From the NCBI RefSeq assembly GCF_900187375.1, contig NZ_FYEW01000001.1, forward strand, positions 496,001 through 560,000: a stretch of 64,000 nucleotides of DNA, in the 5' to 3' direction. Shown in pieces: positions 2,861 to 63,282 of the stretch. The notes under the pieces are model-generated. The model was not told the DNA's origin, did not search any database, and was given only the letters and a program-made list of their open reading frames with translations. The translations under genes were made by a program, and so were the position numbers. Within the stretch, counting starts at the first letter, position 1. Each line of letters begins with the position of its first letter. Source of the stretch: Hymenobacter gelipurpurascens (GTDB taxonomy: Bacteria > Bacteroidota > Bacteroidia > Cytophagales > Hymenobacteraceae).

Positions 2861-3042
2861 GTCATGCTGAGGCTCGATTGTAGAGACGCAATAGTTGGAA
2901 TCTCGACGTTGAACGACTGGCCTAGAACAGCTTCGGGTAAACAATATCAGCAACGAGGAGATGCAAAATTTTGCGTCTCTACGACGTTCTCATTGCAGCG
3001 CGCGAGATGCTTCGACTGCGCGGACTCCATATCAAGCATGAC
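2861..3042. repeat. Degenerate composite repeat, copy 2 of the GTCATGCT family
   Basis: It starts GTCATGCTGAGGC (2861) and ends with AGCATGAC (3035-3042), preceded by CGAGATGCTTCGACTGCGC, so it is bounded by the same words as the 1100-1205 hairpin. Inside lies a second inverted pair, TAGAGACGCAA (2881-2891) and TTGCGTCTCTA (2971-2981), with an ACTGGCCTAG word between them. It looks like one repeat inserted in another. It fills the GH51-GH10 intergenic gap. Confidence 0.75.
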
Positions 3043-3067
3043 GGTCAAATAAGCCCTTTCAACCTCT

Positions 3068-4162
3068 ATGAAAACCACCCTGTTTCCTATGCGCAAACTC
3101 TCTCTGGCGGCTCTGCTGGTTGGTGGACTTGGCCTGCTTAGCAGCCAGCGCCCGGCCTCCGAAAAAACGCTGAAAGAGGCCTACAAGAACTACTTCCCGA
3201 TTGGGGTAGCCGTGGGTGCCCGGCAGCTGAAAGGTGGTGAGGCCGAGCTCATCAAGCAGCAGTTCAACAGCGTGACACCGGAAAACGCCATGAAAATGGG
3301 CCCGATTCATCCGGAGGAAAACCGCTACTTCTGGACCGACGCCGACGCCATCGTGGACTTCGCGCAGGCCAACAAGCTACGCGTGCGGGGGCACAACCTG
3401 CTCTGGCACGAGCAAACGCCCAAGTGGCTGTTCAAGGATGCCGAGGGCAAGCAGGTGAGCAAGGAAGTATTGCTGAAGCGCCTGCACGACCACATCTTCA
3501 CCGTAGTGAAACGCTACAAAGGCAAGATATACGCCTGGGACGTGGTGAACGAAGCCATTGCCGACAACCCCCAGGAGTTCCTGCGCAACTCGGAGTGGTA
3601 CCAAATATGCGGCGAGGATTTCATTGCAAAAGCTTTCGAGTACGCCCACGAAGCCGACCCTAAAGCCCAGCTTTTCTACAATGACTACAACACCGAGCGG
3701 CCCGAAAAGCGCGAGCGAATCTATAAGCTGCTCAAGAAGCTGAAAGACGCCAACGTGCCGATTCATGGCGTAGGCCTGCAGGGGCACTGGTCGTTGCAGG
3801 AGCCTACGGAGGCGGAGCTGCGCAAGGCCATTGAGCAGTACTCCACACTGGGCCTGAAAGTGCAGATTACGGAGCTGGACGTGTCCATCTACCCCTGGGA
3901 AAAGGAGCGCCGCGCCAAGCGCCCCGGCGAGTCGGATGCCTACACGCCGGAGCTGGAGCAGAAGCAGGCGGAGCAGTACAAGATGTTCTTCCGCGTCTTC
4001 CGCGACTACAAGAACGTGCTGACCGGCGTCACCTTCTGGAACGTCTCGGACCAGTACAGCTGGCTGGATACGTACCCCGTCGCTGGCCGCAAAAACTACC
4101 CCTTGCTCTTCGACCAAAACCTGAAGCCCAAAAAGGCTTTTCAGGAAGTGGTGAAGTTCTAG
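3068..4162 (+). CDS. GH10 endo-1,4-beta-xylanase, secreted
   Basis: Cleaves internal beta-1,4-xylosidic bonds of xylan. The product has 364 residues: a signal peptide (MRKLSLAALLVGGLGLLSS), then a single GH10 barrel with no carbohydrate-binding module. Family signatures are FNSVTPENAMKMG, RGHNLLWHEQTP, the acid/base Glu in WDVVNEAIAD (residue 162) and the nucleophile Glu in QITELDVSIYP (residue 269). A second Met at residue 8 is an alternative start giving a more compact signal peptide. No lipobox Cys is visible, so secretion to the periplasm or medium is expected. It sits in the xylan run between GH51 and GH115. Confidence 0.96.
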   Translation: MKTTLFPMRKLSLAALLVGGLGLLSSQRPASEKTLKEAYKNYFPIGVAVGARQLKGGEAELIKQQFNSVTPENAMKMGPIHPEENRYFWTDADAIVDFAQANKLRVRGHNLLWHEQTPKWLFKDAEGKQVSKEVLLKRLHDHIFTVVKRYKGKIYAWDVVNEAIADNPQEFLRNSEWYQICGEDFIAKAFEYAHEADPKAQLFYNDYNTERPEKRERIYKLLKKLKDANVPIHGVGLQGHWSLQEPTEAELRKAIEQYSTLGLKVQITELDVSIYPWEKERRAKRPGESDAYTPELEQKQAEQYKMFFRVFRDYKNVLTGVTFWNVSDQYSWLDTYPVAGRKNYPLLFDQNLKPKKAFQEVVKF

Positions 4163-4264
4163 AACAACAAAACGGTAACCCCCTTCCTCAGATGAGGAGA
4201 GAAGTTGCCGTTCTCTGTCTACAGTAAATAACTGCGGCTCATCAGCCTCTGCTTTTCCGTGCTT

Positions 4265-6919
4265 ATGCCCATTCCACATTCCCATCCAACACGCTCAGCC
4301 CTGCTTGCTCGCTGGCTGCTGTGTGCCTTGCTGCTACTGGCCTACACTCAAAGCTGGGCCGACACCCCGACTGGCCTAGGCGAGCAGTACGTTTCTGCGA
4401 AGAAAGGTAAAGGCAGCTTCGCGCTGGCAGCATCCGGCAAAACTGCGCCGCTGTTTGTCAGTGCTCAGGATTGGGCCGGCGTACAGCGCGCCGCCAAAGA
4501 TTTGCAGGCTGATATCAACCGCGTTACCAAACTCCAACCGACGTTAACCACTGACCAAGCGCCAAAGGGCAAGGAAGTAGTCCTGATTGGAACGCTTGGC
4601 AAAAGCCCGCTCATCGACCAGCTTGTACAGAGTAAAAAGCTCGATGTGTCGGGTATTGCCGGTAAGTGGGAAGTTTCCCTGGTGCAGGTGGTGGAGAAAC
4701 CCATGCCGGGCATCGACCGGGCGTTGGTAATTGCGGGCAGCGACAAGCGCGGCACCATCTACGGCATTTATGAGGTGTCGCGGCAGATAGGGGTGTCGCC
4801 GTGGTACTGGTGGGCCGATGTGCCGGTGAAGGAGCAAAAGTCTTTATACGTAGCCGCGGGCCGCCACACGCAGGGTGAGCCGAAGGTGAAATACCGCGGC
4901 ATTTTCCTCAACGACGAAGCACCAGCCCTGAGCGGCTGGGCCAAGGGGAAGTTTGGGGGTATCAACTCCAAAATGTACGTGCATGTATTTGAGCTGATTT
5001 TGCGCCTGAAGGGCAACTACTTGTGGCCCGCCATGTGGGGCAATGCCTTCAACGACGACGACAAGCAAAGCCCCATACTGGCCGACGAGTACGGCGTAGT
5101 CATGGGCACTTCTCACCACGAGCCCATGGTGCGCTCCCAGCAGGAGTGGAAACGCTTCGGCTCGGGCCCCTGGAACTACCAAACCAACCAGAAAACGCTG
5201 GAAGACTTCTGGCGTCAGGGTATCGTGAACATGGGCACCAAGGAAAGCATCGTCACCATTGGGATGCGCGGCGACGGCGACGAGCCCATGAGCGAGGAAA
5301 GCAACATTTCTCTGCTGGAGCGCATTGTGGCTGATCAGCGCAAGATTTTGGCCGAAGCCACCGGCAAACCCGCTGACCAAACACCGCAGCTCTGGGCCCT
5401 TTACAAGGAAGTGCAGGACTACTACGACCGCGGCATGCGCGTACCCGACGATGTAACGCTGCTCCTCTGCGACGACAACTGGGGCAACCTCCGCAAGCTG
5501 CCCAAGCCCGGCGAGAAGCCCCGCAGTGGCGGCTACGGTATCTACTACCACTTCGACTACGTGGGTGGCCCCCGCAACTACAAGTGGCTCAACACCAATC
5601 CGCTGCCTCGCATCTGGGAGCAAATGCACCTGGCCCACGAGTACGGTGCTAATCAGATCTGGATTGTGAACGTGGGCGATCTGAAGCCCATGGAGCTTCC
5701 CATCAGCTTCTTCCTCGATTACGCCTGGAACCCCGACCGCATTAAAGCTACCGACGTAGCGGCCTATACCCAGCGTTGGGCGGCGCAGCAGTTCGGCGAG
5801 AAGCATGCTGCCGGCATTGCCGACATCCTGGCCAATTATGCCAAGTACAACGCCCGCCGTAAGCCTGAGCTGCTGGACCAGAAAACCTACAGCCTGGCTA
5901 CCGGCGAGTGGGCTACCGTAGTGAATGATTACAACCAGCTGCTGAACCGCGCCGAGGCCATCAACCAGGCTATTCCGGCCGCCTCCCGCGACGCTTACTA
6001 CCAACTGGTGCTGCACCCGGTGCAGGCCTGCGCCAATCTGAATGAGCTCTACTTCACCGTGGCTCTTAACCACGACGCGGCCCAAAAAGGTCAGGCCGAC
6101 ACCAACGGGCTGGCCGAGAAAGCCAAGGCGCTGTATGCCAAGGATGCGGAAATCACGAAACGCTACCATGCCGTGGCGGGCGGCAAGTGGAACCACATGA
6201 TGGACCAGACCCACATTGGCTACACCTACTGGCAGCAGCCCAACGAGCAAAAGATGCCCGAGGTAAAAACGCTGCCAAACGCCACAGCACCTGCCGTTGC
6301 GCCCATCATACCCGCTAGGCCAGTAGCCGTACCTACCGCTGGTGCGGGTTTCCTGGAAAGCAATGGCTACGTAAGCATAGAGGCCGAGCATTACACCAAA
6401 GCCGTAACTGGCAGCGCCATCACCTGGCAGAACCTGCCCGACCTGGGCCGTACCCTAGGCGCCGTGACCACCTTCCCGGTGACAGCCGCGGCAGAGGCTA
6501 CACCCGGTGGCCAGTCTCCTCACCTGCAGTACACCATCACGCTGCAGCAGGCCGGTCCCGTTACGGTGCAGGCCTACTTGGCGCCCACGCTCAATTTCGC
6601 GGGCGGGCAGGGCTTGCGCTACGCCGTTTCTATTGACGATGAAGCCCCGCAAATAGTGAACCTGCACACTGGCCTAGTGGCCGATAATGGCAACAGACCC
6701 TGGGAAAGGGCGGTGGCCGAAAGCATCCTTATCAAAACCTCGCAGCACACGGTAGCCGCCGCGGGCACGCACACGCTGAAGTTCTGGCGCGTAGACCCCG
6801 GCGTGGTGCTGGAAAAACTGGTCGTGAGCCGCGGCACGGTGCCTGCTAGCTACCTTGGTCCGCCCGAAAGCTCTTCCGCGAAGCCAGCTGCGGGGAAAGG
6901 CAGCGTAGGCCGCCGGTAG
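4265..6919 (+). CDS. GH115 alpha-glucuronidase, secreted
   Basis: Predicted to remove (4-O-methyl-)alpha-1,2-D-glucuronic acid side groups from xylan. The product has 884 residues with a signal peptide (LLARWLLCALLLLAYTQSWA). The GH115 core includes KYRGIFLNDEAPALSGWA, LKGNYLWPAMWGNAFNDDD and the stretch around EQMHLAHEYGANQIWIVNVGDLKPMELP. A C-terminal domain from about residue 700, opening GFLESNGYVSIEAEHYT, is the accessory domain usual in this family. A GTG at 4259 is in frame, but ATG 4265 is used because it directly precedes the signal peptide. With GH51, GH10 and GH127 it forms a set suited to glucuronoarabinoxylan. Confidence 0.93.
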   Translation: MPIPHSHPTRSALLARWLLCALLLLAYTQSWADTPTGLGEQYVSAKKGKGSFALAASGKTAPLFVSAQDWAGVQRAAKDLQADINRVTKLQPTLTTDQAPKGKEVVLIGTLGKSPLIDQLVQSKKLDVSGIAGKWEVSLVQVVEKPMPGIDRALVIAGSDKRGTIYGIYEVSRQIGVSPWYWWADVPVKEQKSLYVAAGRHTQGEPKVKYRGIFLNDEAPALSGWAKGKFGGINSKMYVHVFELILRLKGNYLWPAMWGNAFNDDDKQSPILADEYGVVMGTSHHEPMVRSQQEWKRFGSGPWNYQTNQKTLEDFWRQGIVNMGTKESIVTIGMRGDGDEPMSEESNISLLERIVADQRKILAEATGKPADQTPQLWALYKEVQDYYDRGMRVPDDVTLLLCDDNWGNLRKLPKPGEKPRSGGYGIYYHFDYVGGPRNYKWLNTNPLPRIWEQMHLAHEYGANQIWIVNVGDLKPMELPISFFLDYAWNPDRIKATDVAAYTQRWAAQQFGEKHAAGIADILANYAKYNARRKPELLDQKTYSLATGEWATVVNDYNQLLNRAEAINQAIPAASRDAYYQLVLHPVQACANLNELYFTVALNHDAAQKGQADTNGLAEKAKALYAKDAEITKRYHAVAGGKWNHMMDQTHIGYTYWQQPNEQKMPEVKTLPNATAPAVAPIIPARPVAVPTAGAGFLESNGYVSIEAEHYTKAVTGSAITWQNLPDLGRTLGAVTTFPVTAAAEATPGGQSPHLQYTITLQQAGPVTVQAYLAPTLNFAGGQGLRYAVSIDDEAPQIVNLHTGLVADNGNRPWERAVAESILIKTSQHTVAAAGTHTLKFWRVDPGVVLEKLVVSRGTVPASYLGPPESSSAKPAAGKGSVGRR

Positions 6920-7042: not shown

Positions 7043-9409
7043 ATGCGAGGTAAAGCATTGCTGTTGAGTGCCTGGCTGGTGCCGGGAATAGTGCTAGGCC
7101 AGTCGAAGCCCCTGGAAACCTTCCCGGTGTCGGCGGTGCAGCTGCTGGCTAGCCCTTTCCAAGTGGCCCAGCAAACCGATAAAGCCTATATACTGGCACT
7201 GAACCCCGACCGGTTGCTGGCGCCTTATCTGGCCGAAGCGGGTTTGCCCCCGAAGGCGGAGCGCTACGGCAACTGGGAAAATACTGGCCTAGACGGGCAC
7301 ATGGGCGGGCACTACCTCTCTGCCCTGGCCTACATGTACGCCGCCACCGCCGATGCGCAGGTGCAGCAGCGCCTCACCTATATGATCAACCAACTGGAGC
7401 AGTGTCAGCAGCAGAACGGCAACGGCTACTTGGGTGGCGTGCCTGGCGGCCGGGCCATGTGGCAGCAGATCAAGGAAGGGCGCATTGATGCCAACAGCTT
7501 CGGGCTCAATAAGAAGTGGGTGCCTCTCTACAACCTTCACAAAACCTACGCCGGCCTGCGCGATGCCTACATGATAGGCGGCAACGAAAAGGCCAAAGGC
7601 ATGCTCATCAAGCTCACCGACTGGTGCCTCGACCTGACGGCTAACCTCTCCGACGAGCAGATTCAGCAGATGCTGCGTAGTGAGCACGGGGGCCTGAACG
7701 AGGTGTTTGCTGATGTGGCTCAGCTCACGGGCGATACGAAATACCTGCGCCTGGCCCAGCGCTTTTCCCACCGCGCGGTACTGGAACCCTTGTTGGCTGG
7801 GAAAGACATGCTCAACGGCATGCACGCCAACACACAAATACCTAAAGTTATTGGCTTCGAGCGAATTGCTGAAGTTGGCGGTGACCCCGCCTGGGCTAAT
7901 GCGGCCACGTTCTTCTGGAAAACCGTGGTGGAAAACCGGACGGTATCTATTGGGGGCAACAGCGTGAGTGAGCACTTCAACCCAACGACCAGCTTCGCCT
8001 CCATGCTGGAAAGCACCGAGGGGCCGGAAACGTGCAACACCTACAACATGCTCAAGCTCAGCAAGCAGTTGTATCTCACCAGCGGCTCCACGCGTTACCT
8101 CGATTTTTACGAGCGCGCCACCTACAATCATATTCTCTCCACGCAGCACCCGGGGCAGGGCGGTTTTGTGTATTTCACGCCCATGCGACCCCGCCACTAC
8201 CGCGTGTATTCGCAGCCGCAGGAGGGGATGTGGTGCTGCGTGGGTTCTGGGCTAGAAAACCACGGCAAGTACGGCGAACTGGCCTACGCCCACCGCGGGC
8301 AGCAGGAACTGCTGGTGAATCTGTTTCTGCCCTCACGCCTCACCTGGCCCGCGCAAGGCCTGACCCTGACGCAGGAAACTACCTTCCCCCGCGAAGAACG
8401 CTCCCAGCTGAAGCTCCAATTGAAGAAAGCTCGCCAGTTTGCGCTCAGCATCCGGCAACCCAACTGGCTGCCTACAGGCAAGCTGCAGGTGCTGGTGAAC
8501 GGTAAGCCCGTAGCCACTAGTGCAGTCTCACCCGGCTACGTAACCGTGCAGCGCAAGTGGCGCTCCGGCGACGTAGTGACTGTGGCGCTGCCAATGGAAA
8601 CCAAGGCCGAGTACCTGCCCGATCATTCGCCCTGGGTGTCGTTCGTGCACGGGCCGGTGGTGCTGGCCGCCGTAACGGATACGACGGATCTGGTAGGCCT
8701 GCACGCCAACGGTCAACGCATGGCCCACGTAGCCAGCGGGCCGCTCTATCCGGTGGAGGAAGCGCCAGTGCTCGTTTCGACGGATAAAAACGTAGCGGCC
8801 GGCATCACGCCCGTGCCTGGGCAGCCGCTCACGTTTTCAGCGGCGAAGCTGATTGATTCTGACAAGTACCGCAACATGCGCCTCGTGCCTTTTTCGCAAA
8901 TTCATGATGCCCGCTACATGGTATACTGGCCCGTGACAACACCCGAAGGCCTGGCCGCGCGCAAGGAGGAAATCCGGCGCCGAGACGAAGAGAAACGGGC
9001 TCTGGAAGCCCGCACCGTTGACCAAGTGACGCCCGGCGAGCAACAGCCAGAATCAGATCATGGATTTCAGGGCGAGCAAACCGAGTCGGGTAGCCACCGC
9101 AACCGCCACTGGCGCCACGCCAAAGGCTGGTTCAGCTACAACCTACGCAACCCCAACCGCTCCGCCCGCGCGCTCCGCGTGACTTACTCCGGCGGCGACA
9201 AAGACCGGCAGTTCACTATTCTGGTAAACGGCATGCCGCTCACGAAAGTAGCCTTGCAAGGCAATCCGCAGGGTGACTTCTACGATGTGGACTATGCCCT
9301 GCCCAAAGCCCTGCAACAAGCCAATGCGCCTACCACGCTGGTCGTGAAATTCGAGGCGGCCCCTGGCTCAACGGCCGGAGGAGTGTTCGATGTGCGTCTG
9401 CTGAAATAA
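7043..9409 (+). CDS. GH127/GH146-type beta-L-arabinofuranosidase (DUF1680), secreted
   Basis: Predicted to release beta-linked L-arabinofuranose. The 788-residue product has a signal peptide (MRGKALLLSAWLVPGIVLGQ) and an (alpha/alpha)6-type catalytic domain. The unusual zinc/cysteine active site described for HypBA1 is intact: Glu329 and Cys331 in GPETCNTYNM, and Cys398-Cys399 in MWCCVGSGLENHG, one of which acts as the nucleophile in the family. The C-terminal third has a DUF4986-like part (HDARYMVYWPV) and a jelly-roll-like end (WFSYNLRNPNRSARALRVTYSGGD). TTG and ATT codons upstream are in frame; ATG 7043 fits the signal peptide best. GH127 and GH146 cannot be separated by eye. Confidence 0.9.
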   Translation: MRGKALLLSAWLVPGIVLGQSKPLETFPVSAVQLLASPFQVAQQTDKAYILALNPDRLLAPYLAEAGLPPKAERYGNWENTGLDGHMGGHYLSALAYMYAATADAQVQQRLTYMINQLEQCQQQNGNGYLGGVPGGRAMWQQIKEGRIDANSFGLNKKWVPLYNLHKTYAGLRDAYMIGGNEKAKGMLIKLTDWCLDLTANLSDEQIQQMLRSEHGGLNEVFADVAQLTGDTKYLRLAQRFSHRAVLEPLLAGKDMLNGMHANTQIPKVIGFERIAEVGGDPAWANAATFFWKTVVENRTVSIGGNSVSEHFNPTTSFASMLESTEGPETCNTYNMLKLSKQLYLTSGSTRYLDFYERATYNHILSTQHPGQGGFVYFTPMRPRHYRVYSQPQEGMWCCVGSGLENHGKYGELAYAHRGQQELLVNLFLPSRLTWPAQGLTLTQETTFPREERSQLKLQLKKARQFALSIRQPNWLPTGKLQVLVNGKPVATSAVSPGYVTVQRKWRSGDVVTVALPMETKAEYLPDHSPWVSFVHGPVVLAAVTDTTDLVGLHANGQRMAHVASGPLYPVEEAPVLVSTDKNVAAGITPVPGQPLTFSAAKLIDSDKYRNMRLVPFSQIHDARYMVYWPVTTPEGLAARKEEIRRRDEEKRALEARTVDQVTPGEQQPESDHGFQGEQTESGSHRNRHWRHAKGWFSYNLRNPNRSARALRVTYSGGDKDRQFTILVNGMPLTKVALQGNPQGDFYDVDYALPKALQQANAPTTLVVKFEAAPGSTAGGVFDVRLLK

Positions 9410-9541
9410 GCACACACTCTGGTACAGTCAGCAAATCGGAGTGGCCTAGCAATAAGTCTTGGCCTGGGAGCCAAGCTAGGCCAGTCGACCAGATGAGTAC
9501 CTTAACTGCGCCATGCCTAGCGTGTGAGAAACTGTACAACC

Positions 9542-9579: not shown

Positions 9580-9604
9580 AAAGCTGGTTAGCAGTGGCCT
9601 AGGC

Positions 9605-12418
9605 CTATGCAGACAGCTCCTGAATCAGCTTCTGCAGACCTTGCTCGGCATTGTTGCCGAGGTCTACGCGTAGCGTACGACGGTCGTAGTCGCGGAGGGC
9701 CTGCAGATCGCCTTGGGCCTGGGCATTCTTCAGGGTGCCGAAGGTGTAGGAGCGGCCGGGGAGGGGCAGGTCGTTGGGGTTTTCTGCCGTCAGCTGCAGG
9801 AACAGGCCAGTGTTGGGGCCGCCCTTGTGGTACTGACCCGTGGAGTGCAGGAAGCGCGGGCCGTAGCCGAACGTGGTAGCCACGTGCAGACGCTTCTGCA
9901 GCAAGGCACGCAGCTTATCAATCGACTCATTCAGCGCGGGCGACTCCGTCAGGTAGGCTTGGATGGAAACGTAGTCGCCGGGATTCGCCTGGAAGAACTG
10001 GCCTAGCAGCTCGGTTGCTGAGCCAGCGGCCGGTACGCCATAGTAGGCCAGTCCATCAGCAGAAAATGCCTTCTCTTCTTCGGGCAGCTGGCCTTTTTCG
10101 GCTACTTCCTTCATCAGCTTATCGGTAGCCGTTTTGGCGGCCTGCACGTTGGGCTGATCGAAGGGGTTGATGCCGAATACGGCGCTGGCAGCGGCCGTGG
10201 CCACTTCCCAACGGTAGAACTCCGCGCCCAGGTCCAGCGCATCGTGCATCCGGATGCTGATAACCGGATGGCCCGCCTGCTGCAGCGCCTGCAGCTTCTG
10301 CTGGTTAGCCTCATCGGCTTCGTTTTCATAGCCCACGTACACGAATACGCGGTCCTGGCCGTAGAGGCTTGCATCGGTCAGCGGCTCGCCGGCTACGGGC
10401 AATATGCCTTTGCCCAGCTTGCCGGTGCTTTCCGCAATCAGCTGCTCCAGCCACAGGCCCAGGTCGTGCAACGACTGTGGTACCACGAGGGTCAGCTTGT
10501 CGCGGCCCTGCTCGGCGAGTACGCCCAAGGCCACGCCCAGCTCCACGCCGGGGTTTTGCTCAACCGGGCCATAGCCACCGCAGGCACGCATCATCAGGAT
10601 GGCACGCTGCAGTATTTCGCCTACCGGAATGCCGTAGAGGGCCGCCGGCACCAGCCCGAAGTAGGTGAGGGCCGAGAAACGGCCGCCTACTTCCGTGAAA
10701 TTCAGGAAGATTTTGCGGTAGCCTTCTTTCGTGGCGGCCTCAATGAACTTGGAGCCGGGGTCAGTAATGGCCACAAAATTCTCGCCGGCTTTGTCGCCTT
10801 TGATTTGCTTGAGACGGTCGTAGAAATAGTCGCCGAAAGCCAGGGGCTCGGCCGTGGTGCCCGATTTACTGGCCACGATAAATAGGGTTTCCGCCAGCGG
10901 CACGCTTTCTTCAATCTGACGTACGGTACCGGGGTCGGTGGTGTCCAGAATCGAGATGGGCAGGCCCTCAGCGCTGCGCTTAAATGACTTCTGGAACACG
11001 ATGGGGGCCATGGAGCTGCCGCCCATGCCCATCACTACTACGTGCTTGAAACCGGCGGCGCGCACTTCCTGCACAAACTGCTCGATTTCAGGCACGGCGC
11101 TTACCATGGTTTCGGCCACACGGAGCCAGCCCATGAAGCTGCGGATGCTTTGCTGCGCCTCAGCATCCTGAGTCCACAACCCGGCCTCTTTCTGCCAAAA
11201 GCCTTCGGTGAAATTCTTCGCCTTGAACTCCTGAATTTTAGCGTCTACCGCAGCCTGATACTGGCCTAGCTGGTAGGTAGCGGGGGCTACGGTTTCAGTA
11301 AGAGCCTCCTGGCGCTTCTTCTCCAGAGCAGCCATCAGCTTACCGAAGGGCTCCTTAAATTTCTGGCCGCCTTCCTGCTCCAGCTGGTTGGTCAGCTCTT
11401 CCAGATTGATGCCCAGCTCTGGCAGGCGCCGCAGTACGTCGGCGGCTTTGTCGGTGCCTTCTTCCAGACGGACGGCGGGCTTCCCTTTCTCCCGGAAAAT
11501 GTCCATCGTTTCCACCGGAATCGTGTTTACGGTGTGCGGCCCAATCAGCGACTCCACGTACTTCAAGTCGTCGTACTTGGGGTTTTTGTTGCCGGTGCTG
11601 GCCCACAGCAGGCGCTGGGTGCTGGCGTCTTTCTGCTGCAGCTTCTCCCACCGCTCGCCGGCGAATATCTCCTTGTAGATCTGGTAGGCCTGTTTGGCGC
11701 TCGATACGGCCACTTCGCCCACGAGGCTTTGGGCCAACTCGCCTTTCTCGCCGCCCTCGGCCGCCAGCTTTTCCAGCATGGGGTCGATCAGCACATCAAT
11801 GCGCGAGAGGAAGAAGCTGGCTACGGAAGCAATGTTATCAATGGGCAAACCAGCAGCGGCGCGGTCTTCTAGGCCACTCAGGTAAGCCTCGGCTACGGCG
11901 CGGTAGCGCTCCAGCCCGAAAATCAGGGTCACGTTGACGTTGATGCCCTCCGAGATGAGGCGACGGATGGCGGGGAGACCTTCCAGTGTGGCGGGCACCT
12001 TTATCATCACGTTGGGGCGGTCTACGGCTTTCCAGAAGCGCATGCCTTCCTCAATGGTGCCTTCCGTGTCGTTCACCAGCTCCGGCGATACTTCCAGGCT
12101 CACGTAGCCGTCGCCGGAGTTGTCGTTGCTGTCGTAGAGCGGGCGGAATAGGTCGCAGGCCAGCTGCACGTCGGCAATGGCCAGCTCCGTATAGATTTCG
12201 TCTACGGATTTGTTCTGCAGGGCTAGTGCGCGGATGGCGGAGTCGTAGTCGTCGGAGCCCCCAATGGCCTTCTCAAAGATGGCTGGGTTTGAGGTGACGC
12301 CACGCAGGGAGTCTTCCGAAATAAGCTTTTGCAGCTCGCCGTTTACCAGAATCTTGCGGCGAATGAAGTCGAGCCAAATGCTTTGGTTGAACTGGCGGAT
12401 GTCTACTAGTGCGTTCAT
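9605..12418 (-). CDS. Bifunctional transaldolase / glucose-6-phosphate isomerase fusion
   Basis: The 937-residue protein joins two central-carbon enzymes. Residues 1 to about 370 are transaldolase: WLDFIRRKILVNGELQKLI, GVTSNPAIFEKAI and the Schiff-base Lys region RPNVMIKVPAT. From about 430 to the end is phosphoglucose isomerase: VVVMGMGGSSMAP, ILDTTDPGTVRQIEE and the SIS-type sugar-phosphate motif ASKSGTTAE. The fusion would link non-oxidative pentose phosphate products to fructose-6-P/glucose-6-P exchange. ATG at 12418 (MNALVDIRQFNQSIW) is chosen over an upstream in-frame start because it begins the conserved domain. It converges on the pentose-releasing gene run. Such fusions are known in several phyla; the assignment is secure. 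Confidence 0.95.
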   Translation of the reverse strand: MNALVDIRQFNQSIWLDFIRRKILVNGELQKLISEDSLRGVTSNPAIFEKAIGGSDDYDSAIRALALQNKSVDEIYTELAIADVQLACDLFRPLYDSNDNSGDGYVSLEVSPELVNDTEGTIEEGMRFWKAVDRPNVMIKVPATLEGLPAIRRLISEGINVNVTLIFGLERYRAVAEAYLSGLEDRAAAGLPIDNIASVASFFLSRIDVLIDPMLEKLAAEGGEKGELAQSLVGEVAVSSAKQAYQIYKEIFAGERWEKLQQKDASTQRLLWASTGNKNPKYDDLKYVESLIGPHTVNTIPVETMDIFREKGKPAVRLEEGTDKAADVLRRLPELGINLEELTNQLEQEGGQKFKEPFGKLMAALEKKRQEALTETVAPATYQLGQYQAAVDAKIQEFKAKNFTEGFWQKEAGLWTQDAEAQQSIRSFMGWLRVAETMVSAVPEIEQFVQEVRAAGFKHVVVMGMGGSSMAPIVFQKSFKRSAEGLPISILDTTDPGTVRQIEESVPLAETLFIVASKSGTTAEPLAFGDYFYDRLKQIKGDKAGENFVAITDPGSKFIEAATKEGYRKIFLNFTEVGGRFSALTYFGLVPAALYGIPVGEILQRAILMMRACGGYGPVEQNPGVELGVALGVLAEQGRDKLTLVVPQSLHDLGLWLEQLIAESTGKLGKGILPVAGEPLTDASLYGQDRVFVYVGYENEADEANQQKLQALQQAGHPVISIRMHDALDLGAEFYRWEVATAAASAVFGINPFDQPNVQAAKTATDKLMKEVAEKGQLPEEEKAFSADGLAYYGVPAAGSATELLGQFFQANPGDYVSIQAYLTESPALNESIDKLRALLQKRLHVATTFGYGPRFLHSTGQYHKGGPNTGLFLQLTAENPNDLPLPGRSYTFGTLKNAQAQGDLQALRDYDRRTLRVDLGNNAEQGLQKLIQELSA

Positions 12419-12632
12419 TATGAATGAAATATGTAGGAGCGTAAACTGGAAGATAATAGGGCAGCAGCGGGGTACTAGGCCACTCAGTTGTACAGCTACA
12501 CCTGCTGAAACCAACTTTTCGGCGGAAAGCTACGAAAGTTAAGGCCACCTACGGAAGCCAAAAAGGAGAACCAGCGTCCCTAGGCCACTCTAGCGGTGCT
12601 GATGCGGACAAGAACGGAAATAAAGTAGGTAT

Positions 12633-15442: not shown

Positions 15443-15446
15443 GCCA

Positions 15447-27284: not shown

Positions 27285-27300
27285 GCGCCTCCTAACCCAC

Positions 27301-49797: not shown

Positions 49798-49886
49798 GCC
49801 ACTGCGTGGCAGAAGTCTGGCCCAAAGTTGTCTGCCGCCGCATCATGCCACTTTGCCTAGGCCAGTATCTCTAACTAAGAAGCTAT

Positions 49887-52374: not shown

Positions 52375-52489
52375 CGGCGAAACACTGAGTTGGTGAGTTT
52401 GACGTTCGACTGGCCTAGACCACGCAAGTGACGCCACGTAGGCCACTAGAACGTCAACTCACCAGTTCACCATTTCGCTATTTCACCTG

Positions 52490-53431: not shown

Positions 53432-55849
53432 TTGATTCTTCCTCAGAATTTTGAGCAAAAAATAGGCTTCACGCAACTACGTGAAATGCTGGACGGGCTG
53501 TGCCTCAGTGCGCTAGGCCGCCAGTTTGTAGCCAAAATGACCTTTCAGACCAAGCACGACCAGCTCCATAAGCTGCTGCTCCAAACGGATGAATTCCGTC
53601 AGCTGCTTAGCAGCGGTGCTGATTTTCCCAGCTCCCACTACCACGATGTGCACCACCATTTGGTGCGCGCAAATATTCCCGGCTCTTACTTAGATGTGGC
53701 GGCTTTCTTCGCTATCAAGATGAGCCTGCGCACTATTCGGGAGGCGCTGACTTTCTTTACCCACGCCGAGGAAACGTTGTACCCTACACTTCGCCTGCTG
53801 GGCATTGGCGTGCAGGTTGACCGTAATCTACTCGCCGCCCTGGATAAGGTGGTGGACGAGGAAGGGCAGGTGCGCGATAACGCCTCACCGCTGCTAGGCC
53901 AGTTGCGCCAGGAACTGATCAACCGTCAGGGCCTATTGCGCAAGCAGATTGCGGGTATTCTGCGCCACGCTCGCCAGGAAGGCTGGGTGCCAGAAGGTGC
54001 CGAGCCTACCATTCGGGGCGGGCGGTTGGTGCTGCCGGTAATTGCGGAGCACAAGCGCCGCGTGAAAGGCCTGATTCATGATGAGTCGGCGACGGGGCAG
54101 ACGGTGTTTATTGAGCCGGAAGCCGTGTTCGAGCTGAACAACGACATCAAGGACCTCGAAAACGCCTACCAGCGTGAGCTTATCCGCATCCTGACCCAGC
54201 TCACGGCTCAGTTGCGCCCACACATTCCGGACCTGCGCAAAGCGTACCAGTACTTAGGCCTGTTGGATTTCATTCGGGCAAAGGGCCGGTTGGCGCAACG
54301 CTTGGAGGCTTCCTTGCCGGAGCTGCACCCGCGCCCCCTGATTCGGTGGAACCAAGTGCGTCATCCGCTGCTGTATCTTACCTTTCTAGGCCACTCCAAA
54401 GACGACCCGCGCGAAGTGGTGCCGCTGGATATCGAGCTGACGTCCGAACAGCGCCTGCTGCTGATTTCGGGGCCTAATGCCGGTGGTAAATCCGTGAGTA
54501 TGAAGACGGTAGGCCTGGTGCAGTACATGCTGCAGTGTGGCCTCCTGATTCCGGCCGGCGACGGTTCGGAAGCGGGCGTGTTCGAGGATATTTTCCTGGA
54601 CATCGGCGACGAGCAAAGCCTGGAAAACGACCTGAGTACGTACTCTTCGCACTTGCTGAGTATGAAGCAGTTCGTGACCCTGGCCAACAAGCGTAGCCTC
54701 GTCCTGATCGACGAATTTGGTACGGGCACCGAGCCCAGCCTGGGCGGCGCCATTGCCGAAGCCGTGCTGGAGCAACTCAACCGCGCCCGCGCATTCGGTG
54801 TCATCACCACGCACTATACCAACCTGAAGAACTACGCCGAGCGCACCGAGGGCATTGTAAACGGCGCCATGCGCTACGACCCCGATCAGCTGCAGCCGCT
54901 GTACCGCCTGGAAATTGGCAAGCCGGGTTCTTCCTTTGCTATCGAAATTGCCCGTAAAATCGGGTTGCCGAAGCAGATTGTGGAGCGAGCTACCCAGCTT
55001 GTCGGCAAAGACAAAATCCGGTACGACCGGCTGCTGGAAGGCCTCGAAAAGGAAAAAACGGAGCTGGAGCAGCGTACCGCTGAAGCCGCCAAGGCCGAGA
55101 AGCGTCTGAAAAAAGCCGCTCAGGAGTACCAGGACCTCAAGAAATATCTCGACGATACCACGCTGGAGGTGCTGCGCGATGCCAAGGCCAAGGCCAAAAT
55201 GCTGCTCCGCGATACCAACCAGCAGATTGAGGCCACCATTCAGGAGATCAGGCTAGGCCAGGCGGAGAAGGAGCGCACCAAGGAGGCGCGTGGTAAGCTG
55301 GATACGTTCGTGCGCGAAAAGCTCCAGATTGAGCCCCCCAAAGCCCGCGCCACCCGCGAGCTGGCCGACGTAAACACCCTCAAACCCGGCGACAAAGTGG
55401 CGCTAATTGGGCAGGAAGGGCACGGCGAAATCATGAGCGTGAAAGGTAAAACCGCAGAGGTTTCCTTCGGCGGCATGAAGACGCTGGTGAAGATAGGCCA
55501 GTTGGAAAAGCTCACACGCTCCGAAATTCGGGAGCGAGAGAAAGATGCTGCCCGCCGGGCTCCGGCTCAGTACTCGGGCTTCGATACCACCGGCAAAATG
55601 TCGAGCTTCAGCCCCACGCTAGACTTGCGCGGCGAGCGGGCTGAGGATGCGCTCAACAAGATCATGGCCTACGTAGATGATGCCGTGATGCTAGGCGTGC
55701 CGGAAATCAAAATCCTGCACGGCCGCGGTAATGGCGTGCTGCGCCAGGTAGTGCGCGACTACCTGCACCGCATCCGGGCCGTTGCCAGCGTAGCCGACGA
55801 GCACGCCGACCGTGGCGGCGACGGCGCTACTATTGCCGTGCTGAAGTAA
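53432..55849 (+). CDS. mutS2: MutS2 family protein (Smr-domain ATPase)
   Basis: 805 residues. An N-terminal core/lever region (1-320), an ABC-type ATPase with Walker A GPNAGGKS (about 347-354) and Walker B region SLVLIDEFGTGTEPSLGGA, a coiled coil (about 520-640, EKEKTELEQRTAEAAKAEKRLKKA in part), a KOW-like segment and a C-terminal Smr domain (LDLRGERAEDALNKI, LHGRGNGVLRQ). MutS2 proteins suppress homologous recombination and, in some bacteria, rescue collided ribosomes. The start is TTG: the next Met (residue 19) would remove the conserved ILPQNFEQKIGFTQLREML. Confidence 0.95.
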   Translation: MILPQNFEQKIGFTQLREMLDGLCLSALGRQFVAKMTFQTKHDQLHKLLLQTDEFRQLLSSGADFPSSHYHDVHHHLVRANIPGSYLDVAAFFAIKMSLRTIREALTFFTHAEETLYPTLRLLGIGVQVDRNLLAALDKVVDEEGQVRDNASPLLGQLRQELINRQGLLRKQIAGILRHARQEGWVPEGAEPTIRGGRLVLPVIAEHKRRVKGLIHDESATGQTVFIEPEAVFELNNDIKDLENAYQRELIRILTQLTAQLRPHIPDLRKAYQYLGLLDFIRAKGRLAQRLEASLPELHPRPLIRWNQVRHPLLYLTFLGHSKDDPREVVPLDIELTSEQRLLLISGPNAGGKSVSMKTVGLVQYMLQCGLLIPAGDGSEAGVFEDIFLDIGDEQSLENDLSTYSSHLLSMKQFVTLANKRSLVLIDEFGTGTEPSLGGAIAEAVLEQLNRARAFGVITTHYTNLKNYAERTEGIVNGAMRYDPDQLQPLYRLEIGKPGSSFAIEIARKIGLPKQIVERATQLVGKDKIRYDRLLEGLEKEKTELEQRTAEAAKAEKRLKKAAQEYQDLKKYLDDTTLEVLRDAKAKAKMLLRDTNQQIEATIQEIRLGQAEKERTKEARGKLDTFVREKLQIEPPKARATRELADVNTLKPGDKVALIGQEGHGEIMSVKGKTAEVSFGGMKTLVKIGQLEKLTRSEIREREKDAARRAPAQYSGFDTTGKMSSFSPTLDLRGERAEDALNKIMAYVDDAVMLGVPEIKILHGRGNGVLRQVVRDYLHRIRAVASVADEHADRGGDGATIAVLK

Positions 55850-56014: not shown

Positions 56015-56953
56015 ATGCACCCCCGCAACCCCCACAACGCCCGCTACGATTTTCCGCAGCTTCTGAGCACCAGCCCGGAGCTGGCCGCTTTTGTAGTGCC
56101 CAACCCCAGCGGCGACAGCAGCATCGACTTCGCTAATCCCGCTGCCGTGAAGGCCCTGAATCGGGCGTTGCTGAAGCAATTCTACGGCGTGGCCGCCTGG
56201 GACGTGCCCGCCGGCTACCTCTGCCCACCCATTCCGGGCCGCGCCGACTATCTGCACTATGCCGCCGATCTGCTGGCTGCCGACCACGGCGGCGTGGTGC
56301 CGCGTGATAAAGCTGTACACGTTCTGGACGTGGGCGTGGGCGCGAACTGCGTGTATCCTATCGTCGGTACGCATGAGTACGGGTGGCGTTTCTTAGGTTC
56401 GGAGATAGATCCGGTGGCTCTGAAATCGTCTAGAACGATGGTGGCGGCCAATCCTTCCCTGACTGGCCGGGTAGATATTCGTTTGCAAACCCACGCGGCC
56501 TACGTGTTCGATGGGATTGTGAAGCCTCGGGAAGAGTTCGATCTGGTGATGTGCAATCCGCCGTTCCACGCCTCAGCTGCTGATGCGGCGGCGGGCAGCC
56601 GGCGCAAAGGGCGCAACTTGGGCTACGCTAAGTCGCCGGAGCCGGTGCTGAACTTCGGGGGCCAGAACACGGAGTTGTGGTGTGAAGGGGGCGAGGAAGG
56701 CTTTTTGCGCCGTTTTGTAGAGCAAAGCGTACCACTGGCGCATCGGGTGCTATGGTTCTCCATCCTCATTTCTAAGAAAGAAACTCTGCGCAGCGCGTAC
56801 TACTTTCTGCAAAAGGCTGGGGTAGAAGAATCCTCTATCCGGACCATTGAAATGACACAAGGCCAGAAAACCAGCCGCATCGTAGCCTGGACCTTTCAGG
56901 ACGAGGAACAGCGGAAGGCCTGGGCTCTGCGCCGCTGGAAGCCAGTGGTCTAG
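56015..56953 (+). CDS. rlmF: 23S rRNA (adenine1618-N6)-methyltransferase
   Basis: 312 residues. A SAM-dependent methyltransferase modifying A1618 of 23S rRNA. The N-terminus MHPRNPHNARYDFPQL is typical; the SAM site is VLDVGVGANCVYPIVG; the catalytic motif is NPPFHAS in MCNPPFHASAADA; the family end ..QKTSRIVAWTF is present. A hairpin repeat occupies its leader. The stop TAG lies in a CTAGGCCAGT word. Confidence 0.95.
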   Translation: MHPRNPHNARYDFPQLLSTSPELAAFVVPNPSGDSSIDFANPAAVKALNRALLKQFYGVAAWDVPAGYLCPPIPGRADYLHYAADLLAADHGGVVPRDKAVHVLDVGVGANCVYPIVGTHEYGWRFLGSEIDPVALKSSRTMVAANPSLTGRVDIRLQTHAAYVFDGIVKPREEFDLVMCNPPFHASAADAAAGSRRKGRNLGYAKSPEPVLNFGGQNTELWCEGGEEGFLRRFVEQSVPLAHRVLWFSILISKKETLRSAYYFLQKAGVEESSIRTIEMTQGQKTSRIVAWTFQDEEQRKAWALRRWKPVV

Positions 56954-56968
56954 GCCAGTCTAGATGAT

Positions 56969-58191: not shown

Positions 58192-58255
58192 GAAAGGACC
58201 TTATCAGGCCCGCACGACTGGCCTAGGGCCCTGTGCTGGCCTGATAAGGTCCTTC
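58192..58255 (-). terminator. Hairpin terminator after the sugar transporter
   Basis: GAAAGGACCTTATCAGGCC (58192-58210) pairs with GGCCTGATAAGGTCCTTC (58238-58255); an ACTGGCCTAG word and GGGCCC fill the loop. It separates the sugar transporter from murB. Confidence 0.75.
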
Positions 58256-59696: not shown

Positions 59697-59861
59697 GCGA
59701 GGCGAGGTAGGGAGAAAATAAGAGGCTTAAAGATAGAAAGACGCCGCACAACGCCCGCTACCACCAGGCGGGGCCGGAAGCTAACCGGAGTAAGTGGCCT
59801 AGCAGCGGTAGAAAGCCAAATGCCCGGCAACAACATCTTTGCAACAGAGGAGAGGTGTGCG

Positions 59862-60521: not shown

Positions 60522-60599
60522 GATGACGGGCAAGATAGAGCCGAAAAACACGGAAGCACCTGCGCTTGGAGGCGTTGCTAGGCCACTGAATGCTCTGGC

Positions 60600-61622
60600 C
60601 TAGAGCGGAAACTGTTCCCGAAGCCGCTGGTAGCCAGGGTGGTCATCGAGGCTGGTGAGGCTCTCAAACATACTGATGAACGTGCGCACCAGCTCGGGGT
60701 CGGCCGTTTGCATAGCGCGAGTTTCGGCCACCCGGTCGAGATTATACTGGCCTAGGAACACCACCAGGGCCCGGAACGGCTCTTTGGCCTCGGCATTGAA
60801 GCGCAGAAACAACTGTAGCGGCAGCACTGGCAGATGCTGGTGCGGCGCCAGGCCCGCTGCCTGCTGCTCAGAGTGTTCCGAGAAAGTCATAAACGTTTCC
60901 TGAATCTGGCGGAGGGTGGCCAGGTGCTCTTCCCGATGCTCTTTCCAGTGTTCTTCCGTTACGGGCACATTGGGGTGGAACTGCTGCCACACGCCCTCCA
61001 CGAAATAGTGCAGGTGTCCGTGCTTGTCGAAGGTGGGCGGAACCGCGGCCGTAGCATCCTCAACAGCAAGGGTGGCTAGGTAGAACTCTCGGGCATCGCG
61101 GGCACGCTCCAACAGCAAATCGTGAATGCGGTTGGTGAGGGCTCGCATTTCCCGCTGGTTGAGCGGGGGCTGATGATGTCGGGCATAGAAAGTGCCAATG
61201 GCGGCCGAGTCCGTCATCACGGCCAGAAACTCACTGTCCTTTGCTTCGGCCAGAAACTCGGCTATTTCCCCCATAATCGGCTGAAAGCCTTTGTACAGCT
61301 CCCGGGTGGCGTCACTGATAGTGACTACGGCAGTCTTGATCTGCTCTTCTACTGCACTGCTGCTTTCCACCAGCTGGCGGGTTTCGTGCACCAGCTCCTG
61401 CATCTGAGCCATGGCTTCATCGGTCTTACGGGAGGCGTCATCTGCCGACTTCCAGCTCTGAAACGCCACGAAGAAGGCTAGAAAGGAAGCCACGCTTCCA
61501 ATGATGGAGTAGTGGCCACCCAGGGCGTCGTAGGCCGTCAGCCCGACCACAATCAGCCCCAGAAACAAGATCAAATAAAACAGAGAGCTTTTATTGGGGT
61601 CGAAGAGGAAGGAGGGGCGCAT
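60600..61622 (-). CDS. Membrane protein of unknown function with coiled coil
   Basis: 340 residues, not recognised. Two transmembrane helices (about 14-31, LFYLILFLGLIVVGLTAY; about 38-55, YSIIGSVASFLAFFVAFQS) are followed by a heptad-rich segment (about 60-125, SADDASRKTDEAMAQMQELVHETRQLVE in part) and a soluble, mostly helical domain with a His/Glu-rich stretch (TEEHWKEHREEHLATLRQIQ). This arrangement suggests a membrane-anchored oligomer. Its stop TAG is part of a GGCCTAG word. No catalytic motif is seen, and the neighbours give no clue. Confidence 0.8.
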   Translation of the reverse strand: MRPSFLFDPNKSSLFYLILFLGLIVVGLTAYDALGGHYSIIGSVASFLAFFVAFQSWKSADDASRKTDEAMAQMQELVHETRQLVESSSAVEEQIKTAVVTISDATRELYKGFQPIMGEIAEFLAEAKDSEFLAVMTDSAAIGTFYARHHQPPLNQREMRALTNRIHDLLLERARDAREFYLATLAVEDATAAVPPTFDKHGHLHYFVEGVWQQFHPNVPVTEEHWKEHREEHLATLRQIQETFMTFSEHSEQQAAGLAPHQHLPVLPLQLFLRFNAEAKEPFRALVVFLGQYNLDRVAETRAMQTADPELVRTFISMFESLTSLDDHPGYQRLREQFPL

Positions 61623-61793: not shown

Positions 61794-62981
61794 ATGGCCG
61801 ATAACCGCCGATCCGCTTCCTTTTACATGACCGCCACCACCCAATTTGGGTTGGAAGAAGTGCTGGCCGAAGAACTTCGCCAGCTTGGAGCGAAGATTGA
61901 GAAGGTTGGACAGCGCGCCATTGAGTTTACGGGCAATACCCAGCTGCTTTACGAAGCCTGCCTGTGGTGCCGCACGGCCATGCGCATCCTGAAGCCCTTC
62001 GCCGATTTCTATGCCCGCGACGAAAAAGCGCTGTATCGCGAGGTCGGCCGCATCGATTGGAGCAAGTACATCCGGCAGGACCAGACGTTTGCCATCACGG
62101 CCGTCGTGAACAAGTCCTCGTTTGAGCATTCCCTCTTTGTGGCTCAGCTCACCAAGGATGCCATTGTGGATCAGTTCCGCAACCGCACCGGCGAGAGGCC
62201 TAGCGTGGATGTGAAGAACCCCGACATTCGTCTGCACCTGCACATGATTGAAAATGAGGTGATCCTGAGTTTGGATGCCTCCGGCGAATCATTGCACAAG
62301 CGTGGGTATCGTCAGCAAACCAACGTGGCTCCCCTCAATGAGGCCCTGGCTGCCGGCCTGTTGCTGCTCACAGGCTGGGACGGCAAGAAGCCACTCATAG
62401 ACCCTATGTGCGGCTCCGGCACCCTACTCACCGAAGCAGCCCTAATTGCCCAGCGCATTGCGCCCGGCCTCTACCACCAAGGCAAGTTTGGCTTCGAGAA
62501 CTGGGCCGATTTTGACTCCGCCTTGTGGGAATCGGTGCAGATGGATGCGCGTCAGATGCGCCTAGAGGAACCCCAGGCCTACATTGCCGGCTCCGATTTG
62601 TCGCGCGAGTTCATTGAGCTAGCCCGCGAAAACGTGGCCGCTGCTGATCTGGAAGACTTCATTCGGCTGGGCGTGCGCGATGTGAAGGAAGCCAAAGCCC
62701 CCGCCAAAGAAGAGCCCGGCATCGTCATCATGAATCCGCCCTACGGCGAGCGAATTGGCGACGAGCTGGAGATGGACGCCTTATACAAAACCATCGGCGA
62801 CACACTAAAATCCGGATTTCAGGGGTATGATGCCTACATTTTCACTGGCAATTTGGAAGCGGCCAAGCGCATCGGCCTGAAAACTTCTCGTCGCATTCCC
62901 CTCTATAATGGCCCCATCGACTGCCGCCTGCTCAAATATGAGCTATATCAGGGCACGCGCAAAGTGAGCAAGCCGCAGTAA
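61794..62981 (+). CDS. THUMP-domain class I RNA methyltransferase (RlmL/YpsC-like)
   Basis: 395 residues. The N-terminal THUMP domain (about 10-165) includes ATTQFGLEEVLAEELRQLG and ERPSVDVKNPDIRLHLHM; the Rossmann methyltransferase domain has IDPMCGSGTLLTEAAL for SAM and NPPYGERIG as the catalytic N6/N2 motif. It resembles the 23S rRNA guanine-2445 N2-methyltransferase part of RlmL and YpsC-type enzymes without the RlmK fusion. ATG 61794 starts the conserved domain; the long open frame upstream overlaps the divergent membrane-protein gene and is not used. Confidence 0.93.
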   Translation: MADNRRSASFYMTATTQFGLEEVLAEELRQLGAKIEKVGQRAIEFTGNTQLLYEACLWCRTAMRILKPFADFYARDEKALYREVGRIDWSKYIRQDQTFAITAVVNKSSFEHSLFVAQLTKDAIVDQFRNRTGERPSVDVKNPDIRLHLHMIENEVILSLDASGESLHKRGYRQQTNVAPLNEALAAGLLLLTGWDGKKPLIDPMCGSGTLLTEAALIAQRIAPGLYHQGKFGFENWADFDSALWESVQMDARQMRLEEPQAYIAGSDLSREFIELARENVAAADLEDFIRLGVRDVKEAKAPAKEEPGIVIMNPPYGERIGDELEMDALYKTIGDTLKSGFQGYDAYIFTGNLEAAKRIGLKTSRRIPLYNGPIDCRLLKYELYQGTRKVSKPQ

Positions 62982-63025
62982 AGTGGCCTAGCCGCAATAC
63001 CCAGAACATCCTTCTCTCCATCCCA

Positions 63026-63120
63026 TCATCCTGAGTAAAGCGAAGAATCTTTTCACGTGAACACGTGGCCCTAGGCCAGTTGTGTAAACAAGGGAAGGTA
63101 CTTCGCTCTTCTCAGGATGA
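63026..63120. repeat. REP-like repeat of a second type (TCATCCTGAG ... CTCAGGATGA)
   Basis: TCATCCTGAGTAAAGCGAAG (63026-63045) and its near reverse complement (63101-63120, 18 of 20 positions) enclose a 55-base loop containing CTAGGCCAGT at about 63071. Related in layout to the 1100 and 55887 hairpins. The remaining 62982-63282 spacer carries three further copies of the CTAGGCCACT word and no gene. Confidence 0.75.
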
Positions 63121-63282
63121 CCTGTTTAGGAATAGGATAGAATCTGGCACCCATGACCTCTCCATCAGATGTAGGAAGCACTGATGCAGGGTAGTACTCC
63201 GATTTTTTCCGCTAGGCCACTAACTTACCAGTGCCTGCTAGGCCACTGGCTTCCTGCTCTCCCCAATTCCCACGTTTCTGTC

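Follow-up and report, generated by a model that had tools for sequence, protein, structure and literature searches.

To our knowledge, few groups are known to have genome-wide DNA words that a drive maintains: Neisseriaceae, Pasteurellaceae and cyanobacteria. Chi sites and the FtsK-orienting polar sequences (KOPS) are also short over-represented chromosomal words, strand-biased relative to replication. Here we analyse a 10-base word, ASTGGCCTAG, that is abundant in Hymenobacter gelipurpurascens (Bacteroidota, Hymenobacteraceae), starting from a stretch of 64,000 nucleotides (RefSeq assembly GCF_900187375.1, contig NZ_FYEW01000001.1, positions 496,001 to 560,000 of the forward strand), termed the window at its full length. 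A preliminary description of this stretch had noticed the word and proposed an uptake word, a signature like that of cyanobacteria, or a site for a methylase or nucleoid protein.

Neisseria and Haemophilus take up DNA via type IV pili (PMC7965970), and biased uptake together with recombination is the drive proposed for their kind of sequence, with non-coding copies above expectation, orientation unbiased and near-misses over-represented (PMC1939737). The dialects of the DNA uptake sequence (DUS) of Neisseriaceae are congruent with phylogeny (PMC3630211). ASTGGCCTAG resembles the DUS in its length of about 10 bases, its thousands of copies, its preference for permissive and intergenic sites, the clade-congruence of variants and the existence of family members without an abundant word (PMC3630211); with the uptake signal sequence (USS) of Pasteurellaceae it shares shortness, density, a non-coding excess, over-represented near-misses and unbiased orientation (PMC1939737). 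However, DUS dialects are variants of one word with a CTG core, whereas the words of Hymenobacteraceae are mutually unrelated; and the USS differs in that here one genus has several unrelated words and the word tends to overlapping palindromes. The highly iterated palindrome 1 (HIP1) of cyanobacteria and its alternatives offer a third likeness, as genome-wide words with replacement in some lineages and terminal mismatches (PMC4390886). Unlike HIP1, ASTGGCCTAG is non-palindromic and strongly intergenic, and among four methylase families searched there is none common to its carriers.

Abundance, form and placement of ASTGGCCTAG

The window, at 57.8% GC, holds 46 exact copies on the two strands, 26 of AGTGGCCTAG and 20 of ACTGGCCTAG, with 0.30 expected from base composition; the core TGGCCTAG occurs 62 times (2.4 expected) and GGCCTAG 90 times (11.5 expected). 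The preliminary description had counted by eye about 45 copies and about 80 GGCCTAG/CTAGGCC cores, and had estimated about 58% GC and expectations of fewer than one 10-mer and about a dozen cores; these figures hold, and all 14 of its example positions fall on a copy or at most 4 bases from one. No dinucleotide shuffle of the window out of 100 reached 46 copies (mean 0.31, maximum 2). The complete genome (G000, 5,060,948 bases) has 2630 copies (1313 + 1317), against 10 (5 + 5) for the word reversed.

In a 544-kb sample of the chromosome we counted 313 copies (0.58/kb). An order-5 Markov model predicts 40.5 after training on that DNA unaltered, 15.0 after training with every word masked, and 1.07 after training on 15 Hymenobacter loci from species lacking ASTGGCCTAG; at order 6 the values are 103, 28 and 0.71. 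A model trained on DNA that holds the word gives a smaller excess, and the excess persists in every training set. Chance and base composition are rejected as causes, the count being out of reach of Markov models to order 6 and of all shuffles, and the over-representation is real. Outside GGCCTAG, CTAG stands at 1.32/kb on the chromosome, against 1.69/kb in a word-poor 160-kb part of contig C4 (see below) and 0.5–2.4/kb in loci of ten relatives; since it is not elevated there, the enrichment is a property of the word and not of CTAG, and a general CTAG bias is rejected as its cause.

Among 200 genomes of the family, four carry the word in bulk: that of H. gelipurpurascens, G163 (2561 copies), G172 (2335) and G164 (1493); the remainder have 0–66. 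In G163 and G172 the same places were recovered as in the H. fodinae and H. wooponensis genomes, whose versions of the protein encoded at window positions 13541–15439 are 92% and 91% identical to it, respectively.

The 231 intergenic copies of TGGCCTAG in these four carriers have information limited to about 10 bases, RSTGGCCTAG, with a weak 3′ continuation that makes a palindrome in some copies and no conserved flanks beyond; a longer dispersed repeat is rejected on the ground of these unconserved flanks. The word is asymmetric, and its right half is completed in part only: GCCA directly follows 34 of 268 copies of TGGCCTAG in the H. gelipurpurascens sample, which is 17 palindromes read from both strands, with about one expected. 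Near-misses are concentrated at particular positions. Among 61 intergenic copies with a single mismatch (alongside 87 exact copies), 48 have it at position 1 (17), 3 (8) or 10 (23), and the other seven positions total 13.

Placement was examined in a 304-kb sample, where 253 genes were called by a home-made hexamer score, so that coding fractions are approximate; 22 of the 170 copies straddle a gene edge and were excluded from the coding/intergenic comparison. Intergenic DNA holds 87 copies (1.97/kb) and genes hold 61 (0.24/kb), a difference of about 8-fold (binomial p = 7e-35). With three carriers pooled, intergenic density is 2.59/kb between convergent genes (26 copies), 1.95/kb between codirectional genes (98) and 1.19/kb between divergent genes (23); convergent and divergent regions differ at p = 0.007. 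This peak between convergent genes, and the fact that 25 of 244 called stop codons in the H. gelipurpurascens sample are the TAG within CTAGGCCA, would suit a transcription terminator or other 3′-end signal. We nevertheless consider such a role very unlikely: 61 of the 148 clearly placed copies lie inside genes, 59 of 78 word-bearing intergenic regions have a single copy, and the orientation excess in codirectional regions (45 to 21) is due in part to copies that hold the stop codon.

The two strands carry 157 and 156 copies over 28 stretches (544 kb), with no bias overall or local (heterogeneity p = 0.30), and the word is evenly spread along the chromosome, with 2 to 17 copies in each of 24 stretches of 20 kb and a variance/mean ratio of 1.32, little above Poisson. 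The word was thus correctly described as occurring in coding and non-coding DNA and in either orientation. Like Chi and KOPS, it is a short over-represented chromosomal word, and it is nearly absent from mobile-looking DNA; yet the strand bias of those sites is absent here and the intergenic preference is strong, so that a Chi-like recombination or KOPS-like segregation signal, which strand symmetry leads us to reject, is highly improbable.

Within genes the word overrides codon choice. In 192 GGC-Leu-G contexts of the H. gelipurpurascens sample leucine is encoded by CTA in 45% of cases, against 9.1% overall; the GGC-CTA-G usage reported earlier was therefore right in substance. Two species with other words show nothing of the kind in their samples (6% against 6% in H. 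sp. UV11, 0% against 7% in H. sp. CA2-7). In H. cavernae, whose own word contains CCTAGG, the figures are 31% and 11%.

The word might instead arise incidentally from codon usage, from base composition or from a dispersed repeat. Genes also contain TGGCCTAC and AGGCCTAG at high frequency, the former largely in a single orientation, and the order-6 model that has learned the word predicts 103 of the 313 copies. Opposed to this are the intergenic excess, the near absence of the word in close relatives and the confinement of the CTA override to the GGC-Leu-G context. Clade restriction, unconserved flanks and the Markov excess in our view exclude a by-product, and we assign it scarcely any probability.

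Conservation, clade limits and the words of other Hymenobacteraceae

Conservation at orthologous sites, a check proposed in the preliminary description, was assessed over the window and a further 40 kb, in which 35–39 of about 69 H. gelipurpurascens copies are alignable per relative, the remaining copies lying in non-aligning DNA. The word is retained at 16 of 37 aligned sites in G164, 19 of 39 in G172 and 19 of 35 in G163 (p from 1e-4 to 6e-7). Background retention of any 10-mer, from 62–77 thousand aligned, is 16–17%, and that of the word is about threefold higher in all three relatives. An earlier two-locus comparison had given 9 of 11 and 5 of 7 against 19%; the larger one, with its lower values, is preferred. 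Identity per position at aligned copies is 0.70–0.95 in the word and 0.50–0.85 in the flanks (mean about 0.7). Single-base differences at aligned sites in the relatives, counted without regard to the direction of change, are transitions in 8 of 11 cases.

An origin of copies by insertion is not supported, as non-carriers align across copies at six places, ungapped at 9997, 11260, 11869 and 14223; at 15439 one of 14 non-carriers aligns ungapped, the others being cut or gapped, and at 2916 the alignment is gapped.

Other members of the family have abundant words of their own. We surveyed relatives' loci about 22 kb long, taking the best 80 of the 224 found, as well as larger samples of about 122 kb and complete genomes. 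Palindromic words were counted on both strands, which doubles the figures, in the locus survey, the gene-orientation densities and the ACCTAGGT logo, and once per site in the 122-kb samples, the tree scoring, the 120-genome count and the retention tests. Five of 120 Hymenobacter genomes have 3262, 1867, 1815, 492 and 450 sites of ACCTAGGT, and the others 0–60. Two other genera of the family, one of them Pontibacter to judge from named loci, include five genomes with 2912, 1324, 747, 269 and 225 copies of AAAGTATAA (reversed word, 53–108); in most of the remaining genomes, out of 291 from the order, its count is about that of the control or lower, with mild excesses such as 169 against 76 in G394. 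In the 22-kb loci CAGGTATAG, CCTACCCC, GGCTAGCC and GGGGGCAAA are prominent in further species. The top 8-mers of the 122-kb samples are ACCTAGGT in H. cavernae, AAGTATAA in Pontibacter flavimaris and CCTACCCC in H. sp. UV11; in H. sp. CA2-7 GGCTAGCC ranks within the top four, on a par with codon-driven words.

For a quick tree of one gene (a DUF294 protein, 81 rows), each locus was scored for seven word groups, with a threshold of 8 copies. H. fodinae and H. wooponensis share ASTGGCCTAG with the window. H. crusticola and H. cavernae have forms of ACCTAGGT; H. roseosalivarius, BT188 and H. qilianensis have GGGGGCAA; and six Pontibacter have AAGTATAA. CCTACCC departs from this pattern, turning up at three or four places that lie apart on the tree, and the GTATA group unites two different words, AGGTATAG and GGTATACC, in two places. 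The clade words thus largely follow the tree.

Several of these words share features with ASTGGCCTAG. Retention is above background (uncorrected p < 0.05) in five of five pairs for AAGTATAA, two of two for AGGTATAG and three of three for GGGGGCAA; the intergenic excess is about 5-fold for AAGTATAA and about 3-fold for ACCTAGGT, and both show the order of convergent above divergent regions. Text searches of the open-licence literature for the words returned unrelated papers only, and we found no paper there that names them or describes unrelated words across a family of Bacteroidota; searches on over-represented words in that phylum likewise brought up nothing relevant.

One coding site shows two of these words in orthologous position: window 11264 has ASTGGCCTAG, and the loci of H. 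crusticola (L038, position 5441) and H. cavernae (L039, position 2854) have their own form, as if a permissive position had been rewritten from one clade's word to another's. H. sp. UV11 (L076, L153–L157) has, beside its word CCCTACCCC, a second abundant motif of CTCACTG repeat units, mostly intergenic.

The even spread, conservation and intergenic preference of ASTGGCCTAG could reflect a binding site of an abundant DNA-organising protein, under selection at each site, and its half-palindromic form would suit a dimeric protein. Against this, when Hymenobacter loci about 22 kb long are scored at 8 or more copies, a threshold at which words of lower density may be missed, 39 of 54 have none of the seven listed word groups. 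With related clades using unrelated words and many loci having none, the reader of such a site would have to be dispensable or fast-changing; moreover, the divergent, promoter-bearing regions are not preferred. A nucleoid-protein site, one of the explanations first proposed, we judge less likely, indeed improbable.

Biased uptake and other possible drives

DNA of mobile appearance in H. gelipurpurascens is nearly devoid of the word. Contig C4 (284,773 bases) has a single copy over the initial 160 kb, then 33 over the following 120 kb, against 5–17 in each of twelve 20-kb stretches of contigs C1–C3. A 20-kb piece of the word-poor part has blocks of up to 6 kb in common with Hymenobacter plasmid records, including a UmuC/UmuD-type pair; the first 20 kb of C4 had no match in the plasmid-library search. 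This part encodes a TOTE-conflict-type helicase and a restriction-type helicase with an adjoining Eco57I-type methylase. A match there to DUF4138, which we take to be a conjugation family, falls in a PAS-domain frame and is weak evidence. We take the first 160 kb of C4 to be mobile DNA, with C4 as a candidate plasmid. The same part (L172, L173, L179–L184) also encodes a caspase-domain protein.

The carrier with fewest copies, G164, has its largest deficit between genes (0.67/kb, against 1.8–2.0 in the other carriers; in genes, 0.15/kb against 0.22–0.27). Its mismatches at core positions 4–9 number 6 to 12 exact copies, against 12 to 87 in the H. gelipurpurascens sample (Fisher p = 0.03). On these small numbers, the pattern may fit decay of the word after the process that maintained it was lost.

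Even spread, strand symmetry, preference for low constraint, retention, near absence from mobile-looking DNA and wholesale replacement between clades argue for a genome-wide drive over a job done site by site. By analogy with the uptake sequences, we tentatively favour the reading that ASTGGCCTAG is a self-recognition tag maintained by biased DNA uptake through a pilus-independent route, an explanation that falls somewhat short of probable; both DNA transfer as the channel of the bias and the existence of a reader protein are what we infer. Cells would take up or exchange DNA via a putative reader that prefers word-bearing fragments, and homologous recombination would then spread the alleles that bear the word, as in models of the Pasteurellaceae and Neisseriaceae uptake sequences. 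Copies would build up in the least constrained DNA, that is, between genes (convergent ones above all), at stop codons and at synonymous positions. Ongoing bias would hold them there, and they would decay where it is lost; the clades of Hymenobacteraceae would have switched to different words or would show none. It is possible, and to our minds somewhat more doubtful, that Hymenobacteraceae practise a pilus-independent recognition of self DNA whose target word was rewritten chromosome-wide at each clade switch, yielding unrelated ‘languages’ of 8–10 bases within one family and a genetic isolation readable from raw sequence.

The pattern points to a putative DNA reader in Bacteroidota. With several unrelated words, sisters that seem wordless and one possibly fading carrier, the family offers a system for the origin, switching and death of such words; if uptake is the cause, they would offer a genetic way into these environmental bacteria and serve as a sequence barcode for DNA-exchange partners.

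Bacteroidota offer a precedent: Riemerella columbina is reported to prefer its own DNA in transformation (PMC7965970), and the frequent k-mers given in that paper are A+T-rich candidates. Transformation of R. anatipestifer needs ComEC, DprA, ComF, RecA and four proteins without known counterparts (PMC8459023). We found ComEC in all 29 family genomes searched, so it is not specific to word carriers. No T2SSE-type ATPase (PF00437) scored above the cut-off in any of the 29, which had five weak partial matches; the same search gave matches in all 14 control genomes, 13 of them above the cut-off. If this search is right, the route is not a classical type IV pilus. Without a pilus-type ATPase above the cut-off the system differs from both DUS and USS and is not one of that family as defined, though it may still work like them; the uptake word first proposed was thus the right kind of comparison, while the strict Neisseria or Pasteurellaceae type does not apply.

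Several observations in addition to this missing ATPase weigh against biased uptake. Genomes without any listed word have ComEC as well. DUF5689, a domain of a Riemerella transformation protein, is absent from three of the carriers (G000, G164 and H. wooponensis). Matches to it occur in 24 of the 51 genomes searched (21 above the cut-off), 10 of 26 in the word group and 14 of 25 in the no-word group, and this lack of association leads us to reject a DUF5689 receptor as in Riemerella. In the open-licence literature we found no report of competence in Hymenobacter. Uptake words are described as forming frequent spaced inverted pairs associated with terminators; ASTGGCCTAG has few such pairs, which may or may not tell against uptake. 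The 38 adjacent core pairs less than 80 bp apart in 304 kb comprise 17 overlapping palindromes, 16 spaced inverted pairs and 5 direct ones, so that overlapping palindromes are equally many. Not all of the clade words behave alike, either. Retention is above background in only one of three pairs for CCTACCC and in neither of two for ACCTAGGT (5 and 2 aligned sites only); the intergenic excess is weak for CCTACCCC (1.5-fold) and almost nil for GGCTAGCC, and for these two the order of convergent above divergent regions is not clear. Finally, each positive feature would also be compatible with another slow word-building drive.

The main rival is such a drive, of the HIP1 kind: an enzyme modifying the core, coupled to mismatch repair, would make and protect the words, with no function needed. 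Some clade words are palindromic (ACCTAGGT, GGCTAGCC), GGCTAGCC with almost no intergenic excess, and ASTGGCCTAG itself tends to a palindrome through the GCCA that follows 34 of 268 cores. Its single mismatches are mostly terminal, as for HIP1, and in some cyanobacteria other words have taken the place of HIP1, which provides a precedent (PMC4390886). The main word is nevertheless no palindrome. Most words here are distributed by clade, in contrast to the exceptional HIPs, which are described as sporadic (PMC4390886). Transitions among the single-base differences (8 of 11) are what ordinary mutation might give. The methylase families, moreover, are unevenly distributed among the four carriers: PF00145 is found in two (G163, G172), PF01555 in one (G000), PF02384 in three (G163, G172 and weakly G000) and PF07669 in three (G000, G163, G164). 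None of these four is thus common to all, with PF02086 and others outside the search. C5-methylation with Vsr-type repair is rejected, PF00145 being absent from the genome of H. gelipurpurascens and from G164. We hold a HIP1-like drive to be unlikely. HIP1 was the right kind of comparison, and both it and the simple methylase site suggested at the outset are weakened by the methylase result. The original interpretation is in sum partly supported: the genome-wide signature stands, and is refined to one that is 8-fold intergenic, restricted to one small Hymenobacter group and one of several clade words.

Copies in the window and neighbouring features

All copies given here are exact matches. Single copies of ACTGGCCTAG on the plus strand lie at 2916..2925 (where the non-carrier alignment is gapped), 4370..4379 (H. 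fodinae has ACTGGTCTAG), 6668..6677 (retained in H. fodinae, with the final base different in H. wooponensis), 7283..7292 (retained in H. wooponensis), 9997..10006 (retained in none of seven aligned relatives, including both carriers), 11260..11269 (H. cavernae and H. crusticola have ACCTAGCT, a form of their own word), 24821..24830 (retained in H. fodinae), 52409..52418, 58217..58226 and 60746..60755. On the minus strand ACTGGCCTAG lies at 6315..6324 (retained in H. fodinae and H. wooponensis), 7094..7103 (not retained in H. wooponensis), 9476..9485, 14223..14232 (present in both close carriers and missing, ungapped, from 16 of 16 aligned non-carriers), 15439..15448 (overlapping the end of the gene at 13541–15442), 49857..49866, 53894..53903, 56950..56959 (overlapping the end of the gene at 56015–56953) and 63071..63080, for which matches in both relatives' loci lie far off the syntenic block and were not counted as orthology.

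Plus-strand copies of AGTGGCCTAG are found at 9440..9449, 9593..9602 (retained in H. fodinae and H. wooponensis), 17016..17025 (retained in neither of two aligned carriers), 17196..17205, 19454..19463, 45270..45279, 46903..46912, 48426..48435, 52123..52132, 59793..59802 and 62982..62991. Those on the minus strand are at 11869..11878 (retained in none of 13 aligned relatives, carriers included), 12475..12484, 12580..12589, 18156..18165, 22915..22924 and 23883..23892 (both retained in H. fodinae), 49255..49264, 49794..49803, 54386..54395, 60578..60587, 63212..63221 and 63238..63247. Two overlapping copies form the palindrome AGTGGCCTAGGCCACT at 23969..23984, and two more overlap in ACTGGCCTAGGCCACT at 38474..38489.

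The 13.6 kb at 24831–38473 are without an exact ASTGGCCTAG and have the core TGGCCTAG only at 26656, 31638 and 32844. Genes of this interval, which is possibly newer DNA, include an aldo/keto reductase, an AraC-type regulator and a molybdopterin dehydrogenase cluster. A further sequence, GTCATGCTGAGC, occurs at 1106–1117, 1188–1199, 2861–2872, 38450–38461, 55890–55901 and 55967–55978, five times exactly and once with a mismatch; two of its pairs are inverted, about 80 bp apart. It is probably part of a longer interspersed repeat, since H. sp. CA2-7, too, has many copies of GTCATGCTGA, in intergenic DNA. Two tRNA-Glu(ttc) genes lie on the minus strand about 6 kb apart, at 40707–40779 and 46985–47057, and one minus-strand frame at 9608–12514 encodes a fused sugar-phosphate enzyme that combines a transaldolase domain with one of phosphoglucose isomerase.

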